Shown: one piece after another, positions 1-6,257 of the stretch
Layout of the letters: each line of letters opens with the position of its first letter
Numbering within the stretch: position 1 is the first letter of the stretch
Assembly (NCBI GenBank): GCA_021793855.1
Contig: JAJYRY010000060.1
Coordinates: 1-6,257, forward strand
DNA from: Thermoplasmata archaeon
Lineage (GTDB): Archaea; Thermoplasmatota; Thermoplasmata; Thermoplasmatales; GCA-001856825
Length of the DNA stretch: 6,257 nucleotides
Direction of reading: 5' to 3'
Notes under the pieces: generated by a model
What the model saw: the letters and a program-made list of their open reading frames with translations, nothing else
The model's database searches: none
Told to the model about the DNA's origin: nothing
Program-made: the position numbers and the translations under genes

Positions 1-1584
1 CCGGGTGACAAAGTGGAATCTACGCTCAGGCCGCTCTCAGTTCTTCTTGCACCTGGAGTATTGAAGTCAATCTACGACGGAATCCAGAGACCTCTGGATG
101 TAATAAGGGCTCAAACAGGTGATTTCATAAAGAGGGGGCTTTACCCCGATCCCGTGGACATGAAGAAGAAATGGAAATTCGTCCCATCCGTAAGGAAGGG
201 AGAAAGCGTAACAGCTGGCGACGTGATAGGGACTGTGCAGGAAACATCGATAATAGAGCACAGGGTCATGGTCCCTCCCGGGATGGAAGGCGTGATCACG
301 GACATATCTGAAGGACAGTTTGGTCCGGTTGAGACAGTCGCACATCTCTCGTCAAAGTCAGGTTCCAGGGAAGTTTCAATGGGGCAGTACTGGCCGGTCA
401 GGTCTCCAAGACCTGTCGTAAGGAAACTGCCACCTGAGATTCCCTTAATTACGGGACAGAGAGTCATCGACACATTCTTCCCTGTTGCAAAAGGAGGGAC
501 AGTAGCAGTACCAGGACCATTCGGATCCGGAAAGACAGTGGTTCAGCACCAGCTTGCAAAATGGGCAGATTCTGAGGTTGTCATCTACGTAGGATGCGGT
601 GAGAGAGGAAATGAGATGACTGAGATCCTCACAACATTCCCGGAGCTGACAGACCCGAAGACTGGTAAACCGCTTATGGAAAGAACAATACTGATAGCAA
701 ACACTTCAAACATGCCCGTTGCAGCAAGGGAGGCTAGCATCTACACAGGAGTCACTATGGCAGAGTATTTCAGGGACATGGGTTATAACGTAGCCCTCAT
801 GGCAGACAGCACCTCTAGATGGGCAGAAGCGCTGAGGGAGATATCAGGTAGGCTGGAAGAGATGCCAGGAGAAGAGGGATATCCGGCGTATCTTGGCAGG
901 AGGGTCGCTGAATTCTACGAGAGGGCAGGAAATTCAGTTGTGCTAGGGCAAAAGGAAAGAACTGGTTCTGTAACGATAATAGGTGCAGTATCACCGCCGG
1001 GTGGAGATATTTCCGAACCGGTTTCACAGAACACGCTTAGGGTAACGAGGGTTTTCTGGGGGCTGGATGCATCCCTTGCGCAGAGGAGACACTTCCCATC
1101 CGTTAACTGGCTAACCAGCTACTCACTTTACTCCGAGGACGTGAGGAAATGGTTTGAAAAGAATGTTTCCCAGGAATGGCATGAACAGTACCTGAGGAGC
1201 ATGGAGATACTCCAGGAGGAGAGCGAGCTGCAGGAGGTTGCACAGCTGGTGGGTTATGATGCTCTTCCAGAAAATGAGAAGGAGGTACTTGACGTTGCAA
1301 GGGCGATAAGGGAATATTTCCTGCAGCAGAGTGCATTCGATGATGTAGATACATACTGTTCCCTCAAGAAACAGTTCCTCATCCTGAAATCAATACTTCA
1401 GATGGACCAACTTGAAAAGTACGCGGTATCAAAGGGATCGGCAGTATCTGACCTGAATTCACTTTCCTACAGGGAGAAGCTGTCAAGGTTCAAGGAGGTC
1501 AAGGAGGGAGAGGTAGAACAGTATTTCACTTCCCTATCCAAGCTGATGGAAGATGAAATAAAGGGGAGGGCTGATAAAATATGA
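1..1584 (+). CDS. atpA: A-type ATP synthase catalytic subunit A (5' end missing)
   Basis: Catalytic subunit of the A1 head; three copies alternate with B and bind and convert ATP on the cytoplasmic side. The reading frame is open from base 1 (Pro-Gly-Asp-Lys, then Val at the GTG at 13), and this matches the conserved PLSV-L-PG segment that lies some 60 residues into complete family members. The gene therefore continues to the left, and the GTG at 13 is an internal valine, not a start. Seen: the subunit-A-specific non-homologous region (bases ~130-450), the Walker A motif GPFGSGKT at 514-537, the GCGERGNEM motif from 592, the Walker B strand VALMAD at 790-807, and the helical C-terminal domain from about 1090 on. 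The 527 codons present plus ~60 missing give the usual ~585 residues. Neither of the two known VMA intein sites (P-loop; before Cys at 595) is interrupted. The stop overlaps the ATG of B by 4 nt (ATGA). Identity is certain from the motifs. Confidence 0.98.
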
Positions 1585-2963
1585 GTTCTGATATAAGGTA
1601 CAAGACAGTTTCGAAGATTGCAGGACCGCTGTTGTTCGTGGAAAGGGTGGAGAACGTAGGCTACAACGAAATGGTAGAAATAACGCTCTCTAACGGTGAG
1701 AGAAAGACAGGGCAGGTACTTGAGGCTAGAAAAGGTATAGCGATAGTTCAGATATTCGGCCCGACCACTGGACTTGACGTCCAGAACACATCCGTTCGAT
1801 TCACGGGGGAGATAGCAAGGATACCTGTATCGGACGAGATGATAGGAAGGGTATTCAACGGACTCGGTGAACCCCGGGACGGTATGGGGAACATAATTTC
1901 GGAAGAGAAGGTGGAGATAGTAGGAAATGCGATAAATCCGTATTCAAGGGAGGAGCCTTCAGAATTCATCCAGACTGGCATTTCCACGATAGACGGCATG
2001 AACACCCTTGTCAGGGGTCAGAAACTGCCGCTATTCTCTGGATCCGGACTCCCGCACAACAGGCTTGCCGCACAGATAGCAAGGCAGGCGAAGGTGCTGA
2101 GCTCATCTGAAGGATTTTCCATAGTATTCGCAGCCATGGGAATCACGTCCGAGGAAGCGAACTTCTTCATTGACGAGTTCAGGAGCACGGGTGCGCTGAT
2201 GAGGTCGGTGCTCTTCCTCAATCTCGCATCAGACCCATCGATGGAGAGGACGATACTTCCAAGGGTAGCTCTGACTGCAGCGGAATACCTTGCTTATGAG
2301 AAGGAGATGCACGTCCTTGTCATTCTTACGGACATGACAAATTACGCTGAAGCCCTCAGGGAAATTTCTGCAGCAAGGGAAGAAGTCCCTGGGAGAAGGG
2401 GATATCCAGGTTACCTTTACACAGACCTTTCAACAATATACGAGAGGGCAGGGAAGATAAAGGGGAGGAACGGGTCCATTACGCAGCTGCCTATCCTTTC
2501 CATGCCATCAGACGACATGACGCATCCTATCCCAGACCTCACTGGATACATAACTGAAGGGCAAATATTCGTTAGCAGGGACCTGCACAGGAGAGGCATA
2601 TATCCGCCCATAAACGTCCTTCCATCCCTGTCAAGGCTGATGAACCAGGGGATCGGGAAGGGAAGAACGAGGGAGGATCATCGTGGTGTAGCAGACCAGC
2701 TTTATTCCGCTTACGGCCGTGGAACGGACCTCAAGAGCCTCAGTGCGATAGTTGGAATGGAAGCGTTGGGGAAGGAAGACAGGACATACCTTGAGTTCGC
2801 GAACCAGTTCGAGGCCAAATTTGTCAACCAGGGCTACAATGAGGACAGGACAATTGAAGCCACGCTGGATAAAGGGTGGGAACTCATGGCGAGTCTCCCG
2901 GAAATGGAGATGAACAGGGTCAAGAGGGACTACATCCAGAAGTACGGTAAATGGGGGAAATGA
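1581..2963 (+). CDS. atpB: A-type ATP synthase non-catalytic subunit B
   Basis: Regulatory, non-catalytic partner of A in the A3B3 head. The 460 residues match the usual family length. The N-terminal beta-barrel (residues ~1-75) carries [18 protein letters not shown] and [14 protein letters not shown]. The nucleotide-binding fold has a degenerate P-loop, GSGLPHN (residues 154-160), with no Gly-Lys-Thr, which is the hallmark of B as against A. Further family blocks are [16 protein letters not shown] and [17 protein letters not shown]. Arg352 in [11 protein letters not shown] is the likely arginine finger reaching into the A active site (inferred from the family). The ATG at 1581 is supported by its ATGA overlap with the A stop and by GGAGG at 1565-1569, 11 nt upstream, a rather long spacing. 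Nothing looks truncated or unusual. Confidence 0.98.
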
Positions 2964-2964
2964 G

Positions 2965-3606
2965 TTGGAGATTTCGGATATAAGACCAACGAGGATGGAA
3001 CTCCTCAAGACGAGGGGAAGGATCAGGCTGGCGAAGAGGGGACTAGACTTACTGAAGATCAAGCGGTCATCCCTGATCATGGAATTTTTCAAGGTAGCAA
3101 AGGAGGTGAAAGGGATGAGGGAGGATGTTACTAGGAGCATAGAGGAGGCAATGGAGAGCGAGAGGCTCTCTGAAATCATGGCAGGAAAACTTGAGATAGA
3201 GAACGCAGCATTCTTCCAGCCGCATCTGAAGGTCGATATAGCAGCAAAGAACGTCATGGGGGTCAGGATACCTGAGGTTGCCATGACGAGGGAGGATTCC
3301 TTCATGAACGACCTTTATGAGAACATCTCCCTGCCCACTTCCCTGATGGAAACGAGGAAGAGTTTCAAGGACCTACTGAACTATCTCATGATGATAGCTG
3401 AGAAGGAGATTGCAATGAGGAAGCTGCTCATAGAGATTGACAAGACGAAGAGGAGAACAAATTCAATTGAGAACGTGCTCATACCGAGGCTCACCGAAAC
3501 TGCAAACTACATTAAGATGAGGCTTGACGAGATAGACAGGGAGACTTTCATCACGCTCAAGATGATAAAGGGAAAGATGGAGGAAAGGGGTGAGGAAGCT
3601 GTATAG
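2965..3606 (+). CDS. atpD: A-type ATP synthase central shaft subunit D
   Basis: Rotor shaft subunit that sits inside A3B3 and transmits rotation to the membrane ring; one copy per enzyme. The 213 residues are normal for the family. The signature PTRMELLK (residues 8-15) followed by KRGLDLLKIKRSSLIMEFF is diagnostic. Two long helices, residues ~8-75 and ~130-205, form the antiparallel coiled coil, with a short globular middle. The chosen start is the TTG at 2965, one base after the B stop, because it places residues MEISDI before PTRMELL as in relatives; the next in-frame ATG at 2995 would cut into the signature. The upstream ribosome site is weak (GGGGG at 2953-2957), so translation probably depends on ribosomes finishing B. 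The last 17 nt overlap the next small gene in another frame. Confidence 0.97.
   Translation: MEISDIRPTRMELLKTRGRIRLAKRGLDLLKIKRSSLIMEFFKVAKEVKGMREDVTRSIEEAMESERLSEIMAGKLEIENAAFFQPHLKVDIAAKNVMGVRIPEVAMTREDSFMNDLYENISLPTSLMETRKSFKDLLNYLMMIAEKEIAMRKLLIEIDKTKRRTNSIENVLIPRLTETANYIKMRLDEIDRETFITLKMIKGKMEERGEEAV
3579..3583 (+). promoter_or_regulatory. Ribosome binding site GGAGG for the small membrane protein gene
   Basis: A perfect GGAGG lies 6 nt before the GTG at 3590, inside the last codons of subunit D. It is the best-placed Shine-Dalgarno sequence in the window and decides the start of the 42-residue gene. No other gene starts here: the D frame simply reads through it as Met-Glu-Glu-Arg-Gly. 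Confidence 0.8.
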
Positions 3607-3718
3607 GTTCGCAAACGAAGCCCAAAGGAAGTTCTTCCTGTTCACGAGGGTGATCGTTGCTGTGAATTTGTCCCTCCTCATGATAGCGATTTACGTTGTT
3701 CTGAAGGTGATATTGTGA
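3590..3718 (+). CDS. Small single-span membrane protein between D and H (unknown function)
   Basis: I do not recognise this 42-residue protein. It begins MRKLYRFANEAQRKFF and ends IAIYVVLKVIL. The first 20 residues are basic and amphipathic (Arg/Lys at 2, 3, 6, 13, 14, 20); residues ~21-42 are almost wholly hydrophobic with one Asn (26) and one Lys (39). That predicts one membrane helix with the N-terminus in the cytoplasm. In-frame stops at 3563 and 3566 leave GTG 3590 as the only usable start, and GGAGG precedes it by 6 nt. It overlaps the end of D by 17 nt, and its stop is fused to the H start (GTGA, 3715-3718). Without it, D and H would be separated by an unexplained 108-nt gap in an otherwise gapless operon. 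Its place after D resembles that of the small ahaG gene in Methanosarcina operons, but homology is untested. It may be an accessory or assembly factor of the membrane sector (inference). Confidence 0.78.
   Translation: MRKLYRFANEAQRKFFLFTRVIVAVNLSLLMIAIYVVLKVIL
3705..3711 (+). promoter_or_regulatory. Extended ribosome binding site AGGTGAT for subunit H
   Basis: AGGTGAT matches the 3' part of the extended archaeal Shine-Dalgarno consensus AGGAGGTGAT, 3 nt before the GTG at 3715; this short gap is right for the distal part of the consensus. It lies within the last codons of the small membrane protein gene, so H initiation and termination of that gene are physically linked. It supports GTG 3715 as the H start. 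Confidence 0.65.
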
Positions 3719-4023
3719 CTGCTGATTTAGATACGCTGAAGGCAATAAAGGAGAAGGAAAGGGAAAGCCAGGAAAGGCTTGCAAGGGCAGCAGAAGAAAG
3801 CAAGAGGATAGTGAGGGAAGCACTGGAAAAGAAGAAGGAGATACTCAAGGAAGCAGAGGAAGCTTCAATGAAGGAATACGAGATGAAGATTAGCGCAGTG
3901 AGGGAATCTGCATCAAAAGAAGCAAAGGAGATAGAGAGGAAGTTCGAGGAAGACATAGGCAAGCTGAAACGGCAGGTTACCAAGGAAGTGCTTGACAAGA
4001 TGATGAAGATAATAATGGAATGA
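3715..4023 (+). CDS. atpH: A-type ATP synthase peripheral stalk subunit H (also called G)
   Basis: Peripheral stalk subunit that pairs with E in long right-handed coiled coils holding the A3B3 head against subunit I. The 102 residues are very rich in Glu, Lys, Arg and Ala and predict one nearly continuous helix: residues ~7-80 form the coiled coil (AIKEKERESQERLARAAEES and onward), followed by a short C-terminal part ending in LDKMMKIIME. There is no signal or membrane segment. Such sequence is low in complexity, so the call rests on length, coiled-coil character and position directly before I, as in the H-I pairs of other archaeal operons. The GTG start at 3715 overlaps the stop of the preceding small gene and has AGGTGAT just upstream. 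E is also a coiled-coil stalk protein, but at ~190-200 residues with a globular C-terminal domain it does not fit. Confidence 0.88.
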   Translation: MTADLDTLKAIKEKERESQERLARAAEESKRIVREALEKKKEILKEAEEASMKEYEMKISAVRESASKEAKEIERKFEEDIGKLKRQVTKEVLDKMMKIIME

Positions 4024-4032: not shown

Positions 4033-5976
4033 ATGCTAACGCCCGTGAAGATGCTGAGAGTGAGGATCATTTCGACAAAGTCAAACGAAGAGGTGGTGCT
4101 CTCCGCACTTCATGACATGGGGATTCTGCAGATTGAACCAGTTTCAATCACGTCTGATATGATCAAACCCCTCCCGACAGGTGAGTCATACGCAAAACTC
4201 AGCGAGCTCTCGAGGAAGATCAGAGGCCTGGAATCTTCAATGATTCCGAGGGATGTTGATGAGAAGATGCTCTTCAGGGACGTGAAGGAGCTGGTTGCTG
4301 CGGCCGAGGATATAGGCATCTTCGACCAGGTAAGGAGCCTTAGGGAAAGGGAAGGCGCCGCAGTGTCCTCCCAGAAACTGGTACAGGAAGAGGTTGCCGT
4401 CCTGGAGAAGATGGCATTCTACAATGGAGATCTATCGCTGCTAAGCGGGGCAAACATCACATCCTACCTCATAAAAAGTGAAGAAGGAATAAATGCAAAA
4501 TTGAAGGGAATAAAGGATGCAATGACCATTTCCGGAGGAAATTACGTTTTAACGGTAGTCCCGAAGTATTCAGAGTCACAATTCGCAGATGTCATAAAGA
4601 ACGAGAAGACCGACATCTTCCCTGTACCCAATGAAAGCGGGAAAGTCCAGGATGTGCTGGCAAAACAGAAGGAAAAGCTAAATGAAACGGCGAAGACGAT
4701 TGAAGAAATAAGGAAAGAACTTGGAAAAATATCAGACAAGAACTTCAGCAAAGTGGCAGCGATACGGGAGCAGCTTGACATTGAGCTGAAGAAGATCGAC
4801 GTATCTTCCAAGATATCTGGAACTGAACGGGCACTTGTGCTTGAAGGGTGGGTCCCTGCAATGAATTTCGAACAGATGAAGAACGTCCTATCTTCACTCA
4901 CAAACGACGAGATAATAATTGAGAAGGTTGAAACTGACGAGATTCCGCCTACTGCACTCAAGAACCCAAGGAGGATAAAACTTTTCGAATTCTTCATCAG
5001 ATTCTACTCACTGCCGCAATCAGTTGAGTTCGACCCCACGCTCGTATTCGCGCTGATATTCCCGATATTCTTCGGGTTCATGATAGGTGACGTGGGGTAC
5101 GGGCTTACAATATTATTACTCTCCATCTGGATCATAAGAAGGGTGGATCACCCTCCAAAGAGATCTAGAATTCCAAGATTCATAGGAAGATTCATCCTGA
5201 GCATGATGAGCAGGAGAAGCCTCAAGACAGTTGCGAAAGCGATGATCCCAGGTTCGATATTGGCGATTGCAATAGGCATTCTTTTTGACGATTACTTTGG
5301 ATTCAGTTTCAATTATCCACACTTCGCCATCCTTCAGGCGAGCGGCCTGAAGATGCTTCTCCTGCTCTCAGGGTATGCTGGGGTTGCGATGGTTAGCCTC
5401 GGGCTAATATTCGGTTTCATAATCAACTACATCCACGGAAGGAACAAGGAAGCCATAGGGAAGATAGGCTGGCTCCTGCTCGCATATTCCATTGTCATTA
5501 TAGGGCTTGAAGTACTTAGGAGACAGAACCTGGACCCTGCAAAGAACATATTCGCGCTCATTGCATTCCCGATGCTTGCAGTTGGTCTTGGAATAGTACT
5601 CTACTCCGAGAAGGCGCAGGCGCTACTCGAGGTCACGACGATCATCAGCCACATCCTCTCCTACACGAGGCTTGTAGGGATACTACTTTCATCAGTCATT
5701 CTAGCTTTGGTGTTTGATGATATTTTCTTAGGTTCACTCAGGCATTCCATAGGGTTCGTCATACTGGGATTCGTCATACTTATCGTAGGGCAGATGCTGA
5801 ACCTGATTATAGCCGTCTTTGAGCCGGGGATACAGGGTGCAAGACTGATATATGTTGAATTCTTCAGCAAATTCTTCACTGGTAACGGGAAGGAGTTCAG
5901 GCCATTCTCCTCTCCGAGGAACTATACGATAAAGCAGTTTTCACTTGAACCGCTCGTTCAAAAGGGAAAGAAGTAG
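4033..5976 (+). CDS. atpI: A-type ATP synthase membrane subunit I (a-subunit homologue)
   Basis: Stator subunit of the membrane sector that provides the two ion half-channels facing the rotating K ring; homologous to eukaryotic V-ATPase subunit a. The 647 residues are normal. The cytoplasmic N-terminal half (1 to ~335) has coiled-coil arms at ~50-130 and ~205-255, the LEGWVP motif (270-275) and the NPRRIKLFEFF...SLP...FDPT linker (311-336). About eight membrane segments follow: ~337-351, 355-370, 404-418, 441-465, 478-494, 503-523, 546-565 and 572-596. FFGFMIGDVGYG (346-357) is diagnostic. Arg546 in SHILSYTRL is the expected essential arginine for ion transfer, and Arg604 in GIQGARLIYVEFFSKF the second conserved one. 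The loop at 369-402 carries eleven Lys/Arg against one acidic residue and should be cytoplasmic. It starts 9 nt after H and is the last gene of the visible cluster. Ion specificity cannot be judged without K. Confidence 0.97.
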   Translation: MLTPVKMLRVRIISTKSNEEVVLSALHDMGILQIEPVSITSDMIKPLPTGESYAKLSELSRKIRGLESSMIPRDVDEKMLFRDVKELVAAAEDIGIFDQVRSLREREGAAVSSQKLVQEEVAVLEKMAFYNGDLSLLSGANITSYLIKSEEGINAKLKGIKDAMTISGGNYVLTVVPKYSESQFADVIKNEKTDIFPVPNESGKVQDVLAKQKEKLNETAKTIEEIRKELGKISDKNFSKVAAIREQLDIELKKIDVSSKISGTERALVLEGWVPAMNFEQMKNVLSSLTNDEIIIEKVETDEIPPTALKNPRRIKLFEFFIRFYSLPQSVEFDPTLVFALIFPIFFGFMIGDVGYGLTILLLSIWIIRRVDHPPKRSRIPRFIGRFILSMMSRRSLKTVAKAMIPGSILAIAIGILFDDYFGFSFNYPHFAILQASGLKMLLLLSGYAGVAMVSLGLIFGFIINYIHGRNKEAIGKIGWLLLAYSIVIIGLEVLRRQNLDPAKNIFALIAFPMLAVGLGIVLYSEKAQALLEVTTIISHILSYTRLVGILLSSVILALVFDDIFLGSLRHSIGFVILGFVILIVGQMLNLIIAVFEPGIQGARLIYVEFFSKFFTGNGKEFRPFSSPRNYTIKQFSLEPLVQKGKK

Positions 5977-6024: not shown

Positions 6025-6037
6025 ATTGAAACGACAC

Positions 6038-6257
6038 ATGCATCGTCTTGAGACCATTAGCCCAAACAGTTTGATAGGATTACTGGAGATATTGGAGGAT
6101 ATAGGTAAATCAACAGACATAGCGAAACTTGATGATTCGCTGGACGAAGAAAGGACAACGTTGATGAACCTTCTTGACGATGCAGAGAGCCTGAACCTGA
6201 TAAAAGTTTCTAACGGTGATGCTACGCTCACAGAAGTTGGAAAGAAATTCCTCCAAT
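6038..6257 (+). CDS. AAA_assoc_C-like domain protein (3' end missing)
   Basis: A frame open from ATG 6038 to the right edge, giving 73 residues (MHRLETISPNSLIGLLEILE onward). The pattern S-x-L-I-G-L-L-E-I-L near the start, an alternating Leu/Asp helical middle (ISTDIAKL-like, MNLLDDAESLNLIKV) and LTEVGKKFL at the end strongly resembles AAA_assoc_C, a small winged-helix-like domain best known at the C-terminus of nitrate/sulfonate-type ABC transporter ATPases, where it typically reads GLLE-L...LT-LG--F. Here it lies at the N-terminus, with no ATPase before it, so the protein is either a stand-alone form or carries something else downstream. A DNA-binding winged-helix regulator is an alternative. 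TTG 6026 is a possible earlier start (adds four residues); an in-frame stop at 6020 limits the gene. There is no ribosome site, but a TATA-like box lies 31 nt upstream, so it is probably transcribed apart from the ATPase genes. The domain call is from memory of the family pattern. Confidence 0.7.
   Translation, partial: MHRLETISPNSLIGLLEILEDIGKSTDIAKLDDSLDEERTTLMNLLDDAESLNLIKVSNGDATLTEVGKKFLQ

Follow-up and report, generated by a model that had tools for sequence, protein, structure and literature searches.

The open reading frame (ORF) at positions 3590 to 3718 of the window, i.e. the whole stretch of 6,257 nucleotides of archaeal DNA analysed here, is, judging by its codon substitutions, a genuine gene under protein-level selection. 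Its product is probably a conserved single-pass accessory small subunit of the membrane sector of the A-type ATPase, and it appears to occupy the slot of the methanogen AhaG. We regard it as a functional gene because of the synonymous bias in its frame, a small ORF next to the subunit D gene in 157 of 180 loci, a phenylalanine (Phe15) present in 44 of 44 aligned rows, and the existence of relocated copies of a second sequence type. Counterparts of the small protein are encoded after D across much of Thermoplasmata's phylum, Thermoplasmatota; the copy of I-plasma is annotated as a hypothetical protein.

The small ORF and its neighbours

The window covers the 3' portion of an operon for an A-type ATP synthase, with the genes in the order A (cut), B, D, small ORF, H and I. 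The closest named relatives by identity of the D protein are the Thermoplasmata MAG YP5.bin4 (99%) and I-plasma (97%). The features are as follows.

1..1584, + strand: subunit A, 5' end cut by the window (PF00006, PF16886, PF22919)
1581..2963, + strand: subunit B (PF00006, PF22919, PF02874)
2965..3606, + strand: ATP synthase subunit D, TTG start (PF01813, E 6e-49; NF001545, 226.3 bits against a cut-off of 226)
3579..3583, + strand: Shine-Dalgarno-like GGAGG, 6 nt upstream of the GTG at 3590
3590..3718, + strand: type 1 small membrane-protein gene of the D-adjacent family (42 aa, GTG start, TGA stop)
3617..3712, + strand: predicted continuous helix including the membrane span, residues 10-41 (AlphaFold2, mean pLDDT 91)
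3632..3634, + strand: Phe15 codon (44/44 rows of the type 1 alignment A1)
3665..3667, + strand: Asn26 codon (42/44 rows of A1, Thr in 2)
3715..4023, + strand: putative peripheral-stalk subunit H, AhaH-like (TIGR02926 AhaH, E 2.3e-5, 24.5 bits, below the curated cut-off of 48.5)
4033..5976, + strand: subunit I, a-type membrane subunit (PF01496, E 1.8e-27)

An H-like gene is found at the same position in the relatives. The initial annotation had pointed to a GGAGG spaced 6 nt from the GTG at 3590 and to overlaps with both neighbours, and both can be read directly: the motif lies at 3579-3583, the stop codon of D occupies 3604-3606, which gives an overlap of 17 nt, and the ORF shares 4 nt (GTGA) with H, whose GTG is at 3715. 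It had also placed the GTG immediately after in-frame stops. An in-frame stop is indeed present; "immediately" is loose, as the closest one (TAA, 3566-3568) is seven codons before the GTG. Translation likely begins at the GTG at 3590, which is common to the loci L001, L002 and L010; in L007 and L011-L014 the ORF begins 9 nt downstream, with a GTG in place of the window's CTG. Over the relative loci, a Shine-Dalgarno-like motif at -16 to -4 of the first listed start was detected in 88 of 157 cases, compared with 34 of 157 when a control position 26 nt farther 5' was scored; the GGAGG of the window itself falls within the coding region of D, where GAG and AGG codons abound.

The encoded protein, MRKLYRFANEAQRKFFLFTRVIVAVNLSLLMIAIYVVLKVIL, has a pI of 11.1, a mass of 5.0 kDa and a GRAVY of 1.05, and its maximal hydropathy over 19 residues is 2.4. 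The earlier description of a basic product with one membrane helix thus agrees with the pI and with the single helix predicted by AlphaFold2. Phe15 and Asn26 are 11 residues apart, i.e. three helical turns.

The same note expected that standard gene callers would miss the ORF. This was overstated, as was the word "hidden", since the I-plasma copy is present in NCBI as the hypothetical protein AMDU3_IPLC00001G0198 (42 aa, 88% identical to the window protein, annotated without a functional name); an oversight by gene callers is thereby ruled out. A hypothetical protein of Thermoplasma sp. Kam2015 belongs to the same family and is likewise annotated with no functional name, and neither of these two proteins has a precomputed Pfam domain. 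The name "hypothetical protein" is carried over from the source on 9 of 32 profile-search matches.

Selection on the ORF

Substitutions were counted only in codons lying between the stop of D and the start of H. In the frame of the small ORF, all four changes between the window and L001 are synonymous. Between the window and L002 (I-plasma) we counted 11.5 synonymous and 5.5 nonsynonymous changes (pS 0.45, pN 0.07), and the probability of at least 11 synonymous changes out of 17 is 5e-4 under a site-proportional binomial. The other two frames of the region display the reverse pattern, with nonsynonymous changes dominant. The excess of synonymous change outside the D overlap, by which the initial annotation had proposed to judge the ORF, is therefore found in both pairs. 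For the window-L002 pair pN/pS is about 0.15 in the small ORF, 0.20 in H and 0.04 in D; as estimated from these ratios, the constraint on the small ORF is close to that on H and weaker than that on D. When pairs are pooled inside each of eight groups of relatives, pN/pS ranges from 0.22 to 0.44; for some of these pairs dS has reached saturation (25 of 28 in family f4 and 12 of 45 in f1). The ORF is conserved in the Thermoplasmata relatives, where the N-terminus is basic, the C-terminus hydrophobic and change biased toward synonymous sites, much as had been anticipated.

Distribution of the small ORF

The D gene was detected in 95 of the 101 relatives, in 271 of the 284 genomes representing the class and in 277 of the 285 representing the phylum. 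Among the relatives, loci were sampled from 89 of the 95 genomes with D (omitted were G029, G053, G057, G067, G084, G090 and a second copy in G015). Further sets comprised 30 loci, 20 regions (including the duplicate L125 and L126, of only 10 bases) and 26 genomes, and outside the class 20 regions were used; the choice was made from the 271 (class) and 277 (phylum) genomes with D. The census left out 11 duplicate or cut loci and skipped L109, where the contig ends 101 nt after D. An ORF was counted if it lay on the sense strand, was 29-100 aa long, started between -60 and +90 of the D stop and had a hydrophobic 19-residue stretch.

By these criteria a small ORF adjoins D in 157 of the 180 chosen loci, a sample weighted toward the window's own taxonomic order. 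Of the 43 families that offered a readable locus, 26 possess it and 17 lack it. The earliest start precedes the D stop in 124 of the 157 loci. Families f1 (14/14), f3 (5/5), f6 (56/56) and f4 (14/14) have the ORF throughout, and in G036 (L063) it also follows D. Among the controls, the criteria were passed by 40 of 3600 dinucleotide shuffles and by 41 of 180 antisense stretches. The high antisense rate may come from coiled coils rich in Lys and Glu, which read as Phe/Leu-rich on the opposite strand; with so many antisense stretches passing, hydropathy by itself is weak evidence.

The 23 loci with no such ORF belong to f12 (genus g41, 3 loci), f2, f11, f19, f23, f24 (2), f25, f26, f30, f34, f35, f41, f43 (2), f44 (2), f45, f46, f47 and f48; they are to be read with the caution that MAG assemblies may misplace or lose small genes. 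In f43 and f44 no ORF stands beside D in any of 4 loci, and the type 2 profile, the only one used there, had no match in 5 of 5 genomes. It follows that the enzyme can do without the small protein in some lineages. The three g41 loci (L158, L164 and L174) have an H-like gene directly after D and no small ORF, a natural loss.

Two sequence types

The ORFs fall into two types. Type 1 has the pattern N..(R/K)(R/K)F....R.....N and comprises f1, f6, f27 and the g6 member of f3; f12 and the other f3 members were assigned to it by position, order and eye. The window protein, one aligned row of this set, has the conserved Phe and Asn and a basic stretch before its single helix, and the gene order of the window, D-x-H-I (x is the small ORF), is that of type 1. 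The alignment A1 leaves out the f6 subgroup A3, the f3 ORFs of 30-33 aa, L017 and other rows; A3 joins A1 at 91.6% (hhalign, without a permuted control). A5, the 40-row alignment used for the structure, is A1 minus L016, L021, L030, L042 and L070, plus P0031, and in it both Phe15 and Asn26 are invariant.

A genome-wide search of 28 genomes with the type 1 profile gave a single match in 13 of them, and the coordinates place every one of these matches next to D. The 15 genomes with no match are four with type 2, four of g41, G012, G014, G016, G032, G125, G133 and G147; G032 and the f12 genomes G125, G133 and G147 have an ORF beside D despite the missing match. The membership of f12 in type 1 is weaker because G120 is the only f12 genome matched.

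Type 2 follows the pattern (D/T)PEKK.RL..W.IS..ML.LG, with the Gly invariant in 34 rows, and f4 joins it at 94.7% (hhalign, again without a permuted control). In the loci read, type 2 ends the operon and no H or I comes after it. The type 2 profile also matches away from D, in G391 (E 4e-14), G387 (E 6e-14) and G281 (E 5e-9), three genomes with no ORF beside D (L194, L191 and L132); the neighbours of these relocated copies were not recognised, by eye, as ATPase genes. In these genomes type 2 stands on its own as a gene and is more than a spacer, and this speaks against a role purely as leader or spacer. The same relocation makes the linkage argument for an ATPase function weaker for type 2. 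Weaker matches in G286, G268 and G289 (E 0.002 to 0.009) look like chance.

The small ORF is thus 3' of D in both gene orders, either internal (type 1) or operon-terminal (type 2). L001 has the order K-E-C-F-A-B-D-x-H-I and L209 the order H-I-K-E-C-F-A-B-D-x, in which the genes outside the window are named by place, size and the look of their sequence. The two orders read as if the H-I pair may have moved between the operon ends.

A single family uniting types 1 and 2 is not proved, as the two do not join convincingly. With the smaller sets the hhalign probability was 0.6%. With the fuller sets it was 19%, where the best of the permuted controls reached 23%; in probability the real pair surpasses all but one of the 40 block-permuted controls, and in score it surpasses every one (18.57 vs 18.47 for the best control).

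Structure and database matches

The AlphaFold2 model of type 2 consists of a short and a long helix (mean pLDDT 80). The conservation moment at 100 degrees gave permutation p values of 0.047 for A1, 0.023 for A5 and 0.0016 for the type 2 alignment A4, to be read with the reservation that related rows are not independent. Conservation leaning to one face of the helix hints at a single packing face.

For the window protein, neither Pfam nor NCBIfam gave a match up to E 1. The A1 alignment against Pfam and A4 against NCBIfam gave scattered weak matches (best E 0.0068 and 0.0077, respectively), none above a curated cut-off. Profile searches of the PDB sequences returned no credible chain, the best being a ribosomal protein (E 0.18) and a designed protein (E 0.06).

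Comparison with AhaG and other small subunits

A possible analogy to AhaG of Methanosarcina, raised in the initial annotation, holds for two properties only, gene position after D and approximate size. The small ORF directly 3' of D in an A-ATPase operon is in an AhaG-like position, and in Methanothermobacter the operon is listed as ahaGDBAFCEKIH, with AhaG beside D (PMC3087415). The window protein has 5.0 kDa and the median of the 157 ORFs is 5.8 kDa, with one helix; the AhaG of M. mazei has 6.3 kDa and one very hydrophobic tryptic peptide, according to PMC4350412, and a mass of about 6 kDa with one hydrophobic segment is a loose feature, common in small membrane proteins. Unlike AhaG, the window gene precedes H and I and is not operon-terminal, and its product is shorter.

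The place of AhaG in the enzyme is itself unsettled in the literature. In PMC4350412 AhaG is considered authentic because of an SDS-PAGE band seen upon expression in E. coli; the same text counts ten related genes in A1A0 operons, does not rule out a role as component and leaves membership of the enzyme open. PMC6863869 speaks of nine subunits, and according to it atp operons of Thermoplasmatales-like type have been transferred to other archaea. AhaG is absent from the main text of PMC11456600. PMC3750248 reports acid-mine-drainage plasmas (including I-plasma) and T. acidophilum as having no AhaG orthologue, and E- and I-plasma as having no putative AhaH. On the I-plasma contig L002 we observe a small ORF and an H 90% identical to that of the window, contrary to PMC3750248 with respect to AhaH. 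Among the paper titles listed by the literature searches none concerned the small ORF, and a search for ntpH gave no paper.

Other rotary ATPases offer parallels. NtpH of the Enterococcus hirae V-ATPase operon is a short ORF after ntpD. Supernumerary single-pass subunits, such as subunit 8/A6L of the F-type and small subunits of the V-type, are small helical membrane-sector proteins whose end near the membrane is charged, like the window protein; we saw no sequence relation to them, and the PDB profile searches gave nothing credible in this respect.

Proposed function and alternative explanations

A function as subunit or as assembly factor is what we infer for the small protein, the former being the preferred reading. 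Translational coupling with D and H would set the amount of the protein, and its basic N-terminus, by the positive-inside rule, would stay cytoplasmic. One conserved helix face (Phe15/Asn26) may pack on a membrane subunit, either static or part of the rotor (I or the K ring). This packing might stabilise assembly or sealing, a role that supernumerary subunits with a single membrane pass have in other rotary ATPases.

That the reading frame between D and H is open by chance has next to no probability: antisense stretches do pass the crude ORF and hydropathy test, but chance is ruled out by the synonymous bias in one frame and by the census at D (157/180 loci against 40/3600 shuffles), and the conserved residues point the same way. 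We also consider it very unlikely that the peptide is translated solely as a coupling or leader device for passing ribosomes from D to H. The overlaps on both sides, in the window and in many relatives, would suit such a role, whereas neither H nor I comes after type 2 in the loci read, relocated type 2 copies exist, Phe15 does not vary in 44 rows and the residues are themselves under selection; moreover, in g41 the H-like gene directly follows D with no small ORF between them. A leader-only role is thus disfavoured.

Closer to the preferred reading is a dedicated assembly factor that serves the membrane sector (insertion of the K ring or of I) and leaves the mature enzyme, for which AtpI of bacterial F-type operons would be a parallel. 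Operon placement and a single basic helix fit, and the patchy absence (23/180 loci) suits a helper better than a core subunit, but the tight overlap on both sides suggests a matched amount and mildly favours a stoichiometric part; on balance we think this explanation improbable, though not negligibly so. Compatible with a subunit or an assembly-factor role alike is true orthology with the AhaG of Methanosarcina and Methanothermobacter, in one fast-changing archaeal family, and this we hold to be quite possible, if not what we expect. AhaG lies beside D in Methanothermobacter (PMC3087415), the M. mazei protein has 6.3 kDa and a hydrophobic peptide (PMC4350412), the median mass of the 157 ORFs is 5.8 kDa, and type 2 ends its operon in a matching order. 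Against this, three profile searches over 5.8 billion proteins gave no Methanosarcina or Methanothermobacter name among the matches listed (32, 57, and the best 120 of 736, most of them nameless), PMC3750248 reports no AhaG orthologue in the acid-mine-drainage plasmas and T. acidophilum, and type 1 and type 2 themselves join at only 19% (hhalign).

A wider version of the accessory-subunit reading appears rather doubtful to us. Here the small protein would be a further, unrecognised archaeal ATP synthase subunit, types 1 and 2 and AhaG would form one diverged family, one face would lie on I or beside or inside the K ring, and the protein would have been lost in lineages such as f43 and f44.

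A conserved and functionally unnamed miniprotein after D thus occurs in lineages that are described in print (PMC3750248) as having no AhaG. Thermoplasma and Methanogranum, culturable relatives, are named among the profile-search matches, so that the question of AhaG membership becomes directly testable in such organisms. We take Methanogranum to be a Methanomassiliicoccales-type methanogen. If the small protein is a subunit, a component is missing from the present subunit lists of these enzymes and from their reconstitutions.

Further observations on the operon genes

Among plasmid copies of D (3 of 9 records) no archaeal operon end was found, and the Haloferax D stands among unrelated genes. 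On a Rubrobacter radiotolerans plasmid (L213) D, a 345-nt gene for a hypothetical protein and a gene of the V-ATPase 116-kDa family stand in a row. One in-frame TAG occurs within the D gene match of L098 (G311). Downstream of I in the window (6026-6256) another gene starts, with a C-terminal AAA-associated domain (PF09821). The A subunit of L001 (L001:2326-4617) has an intein-like insert at the P-loop (GSGK / TVV); the A subunit of the window has no insert and its flanks are near-identical, and the L002 match to A is similarly reduced in score.
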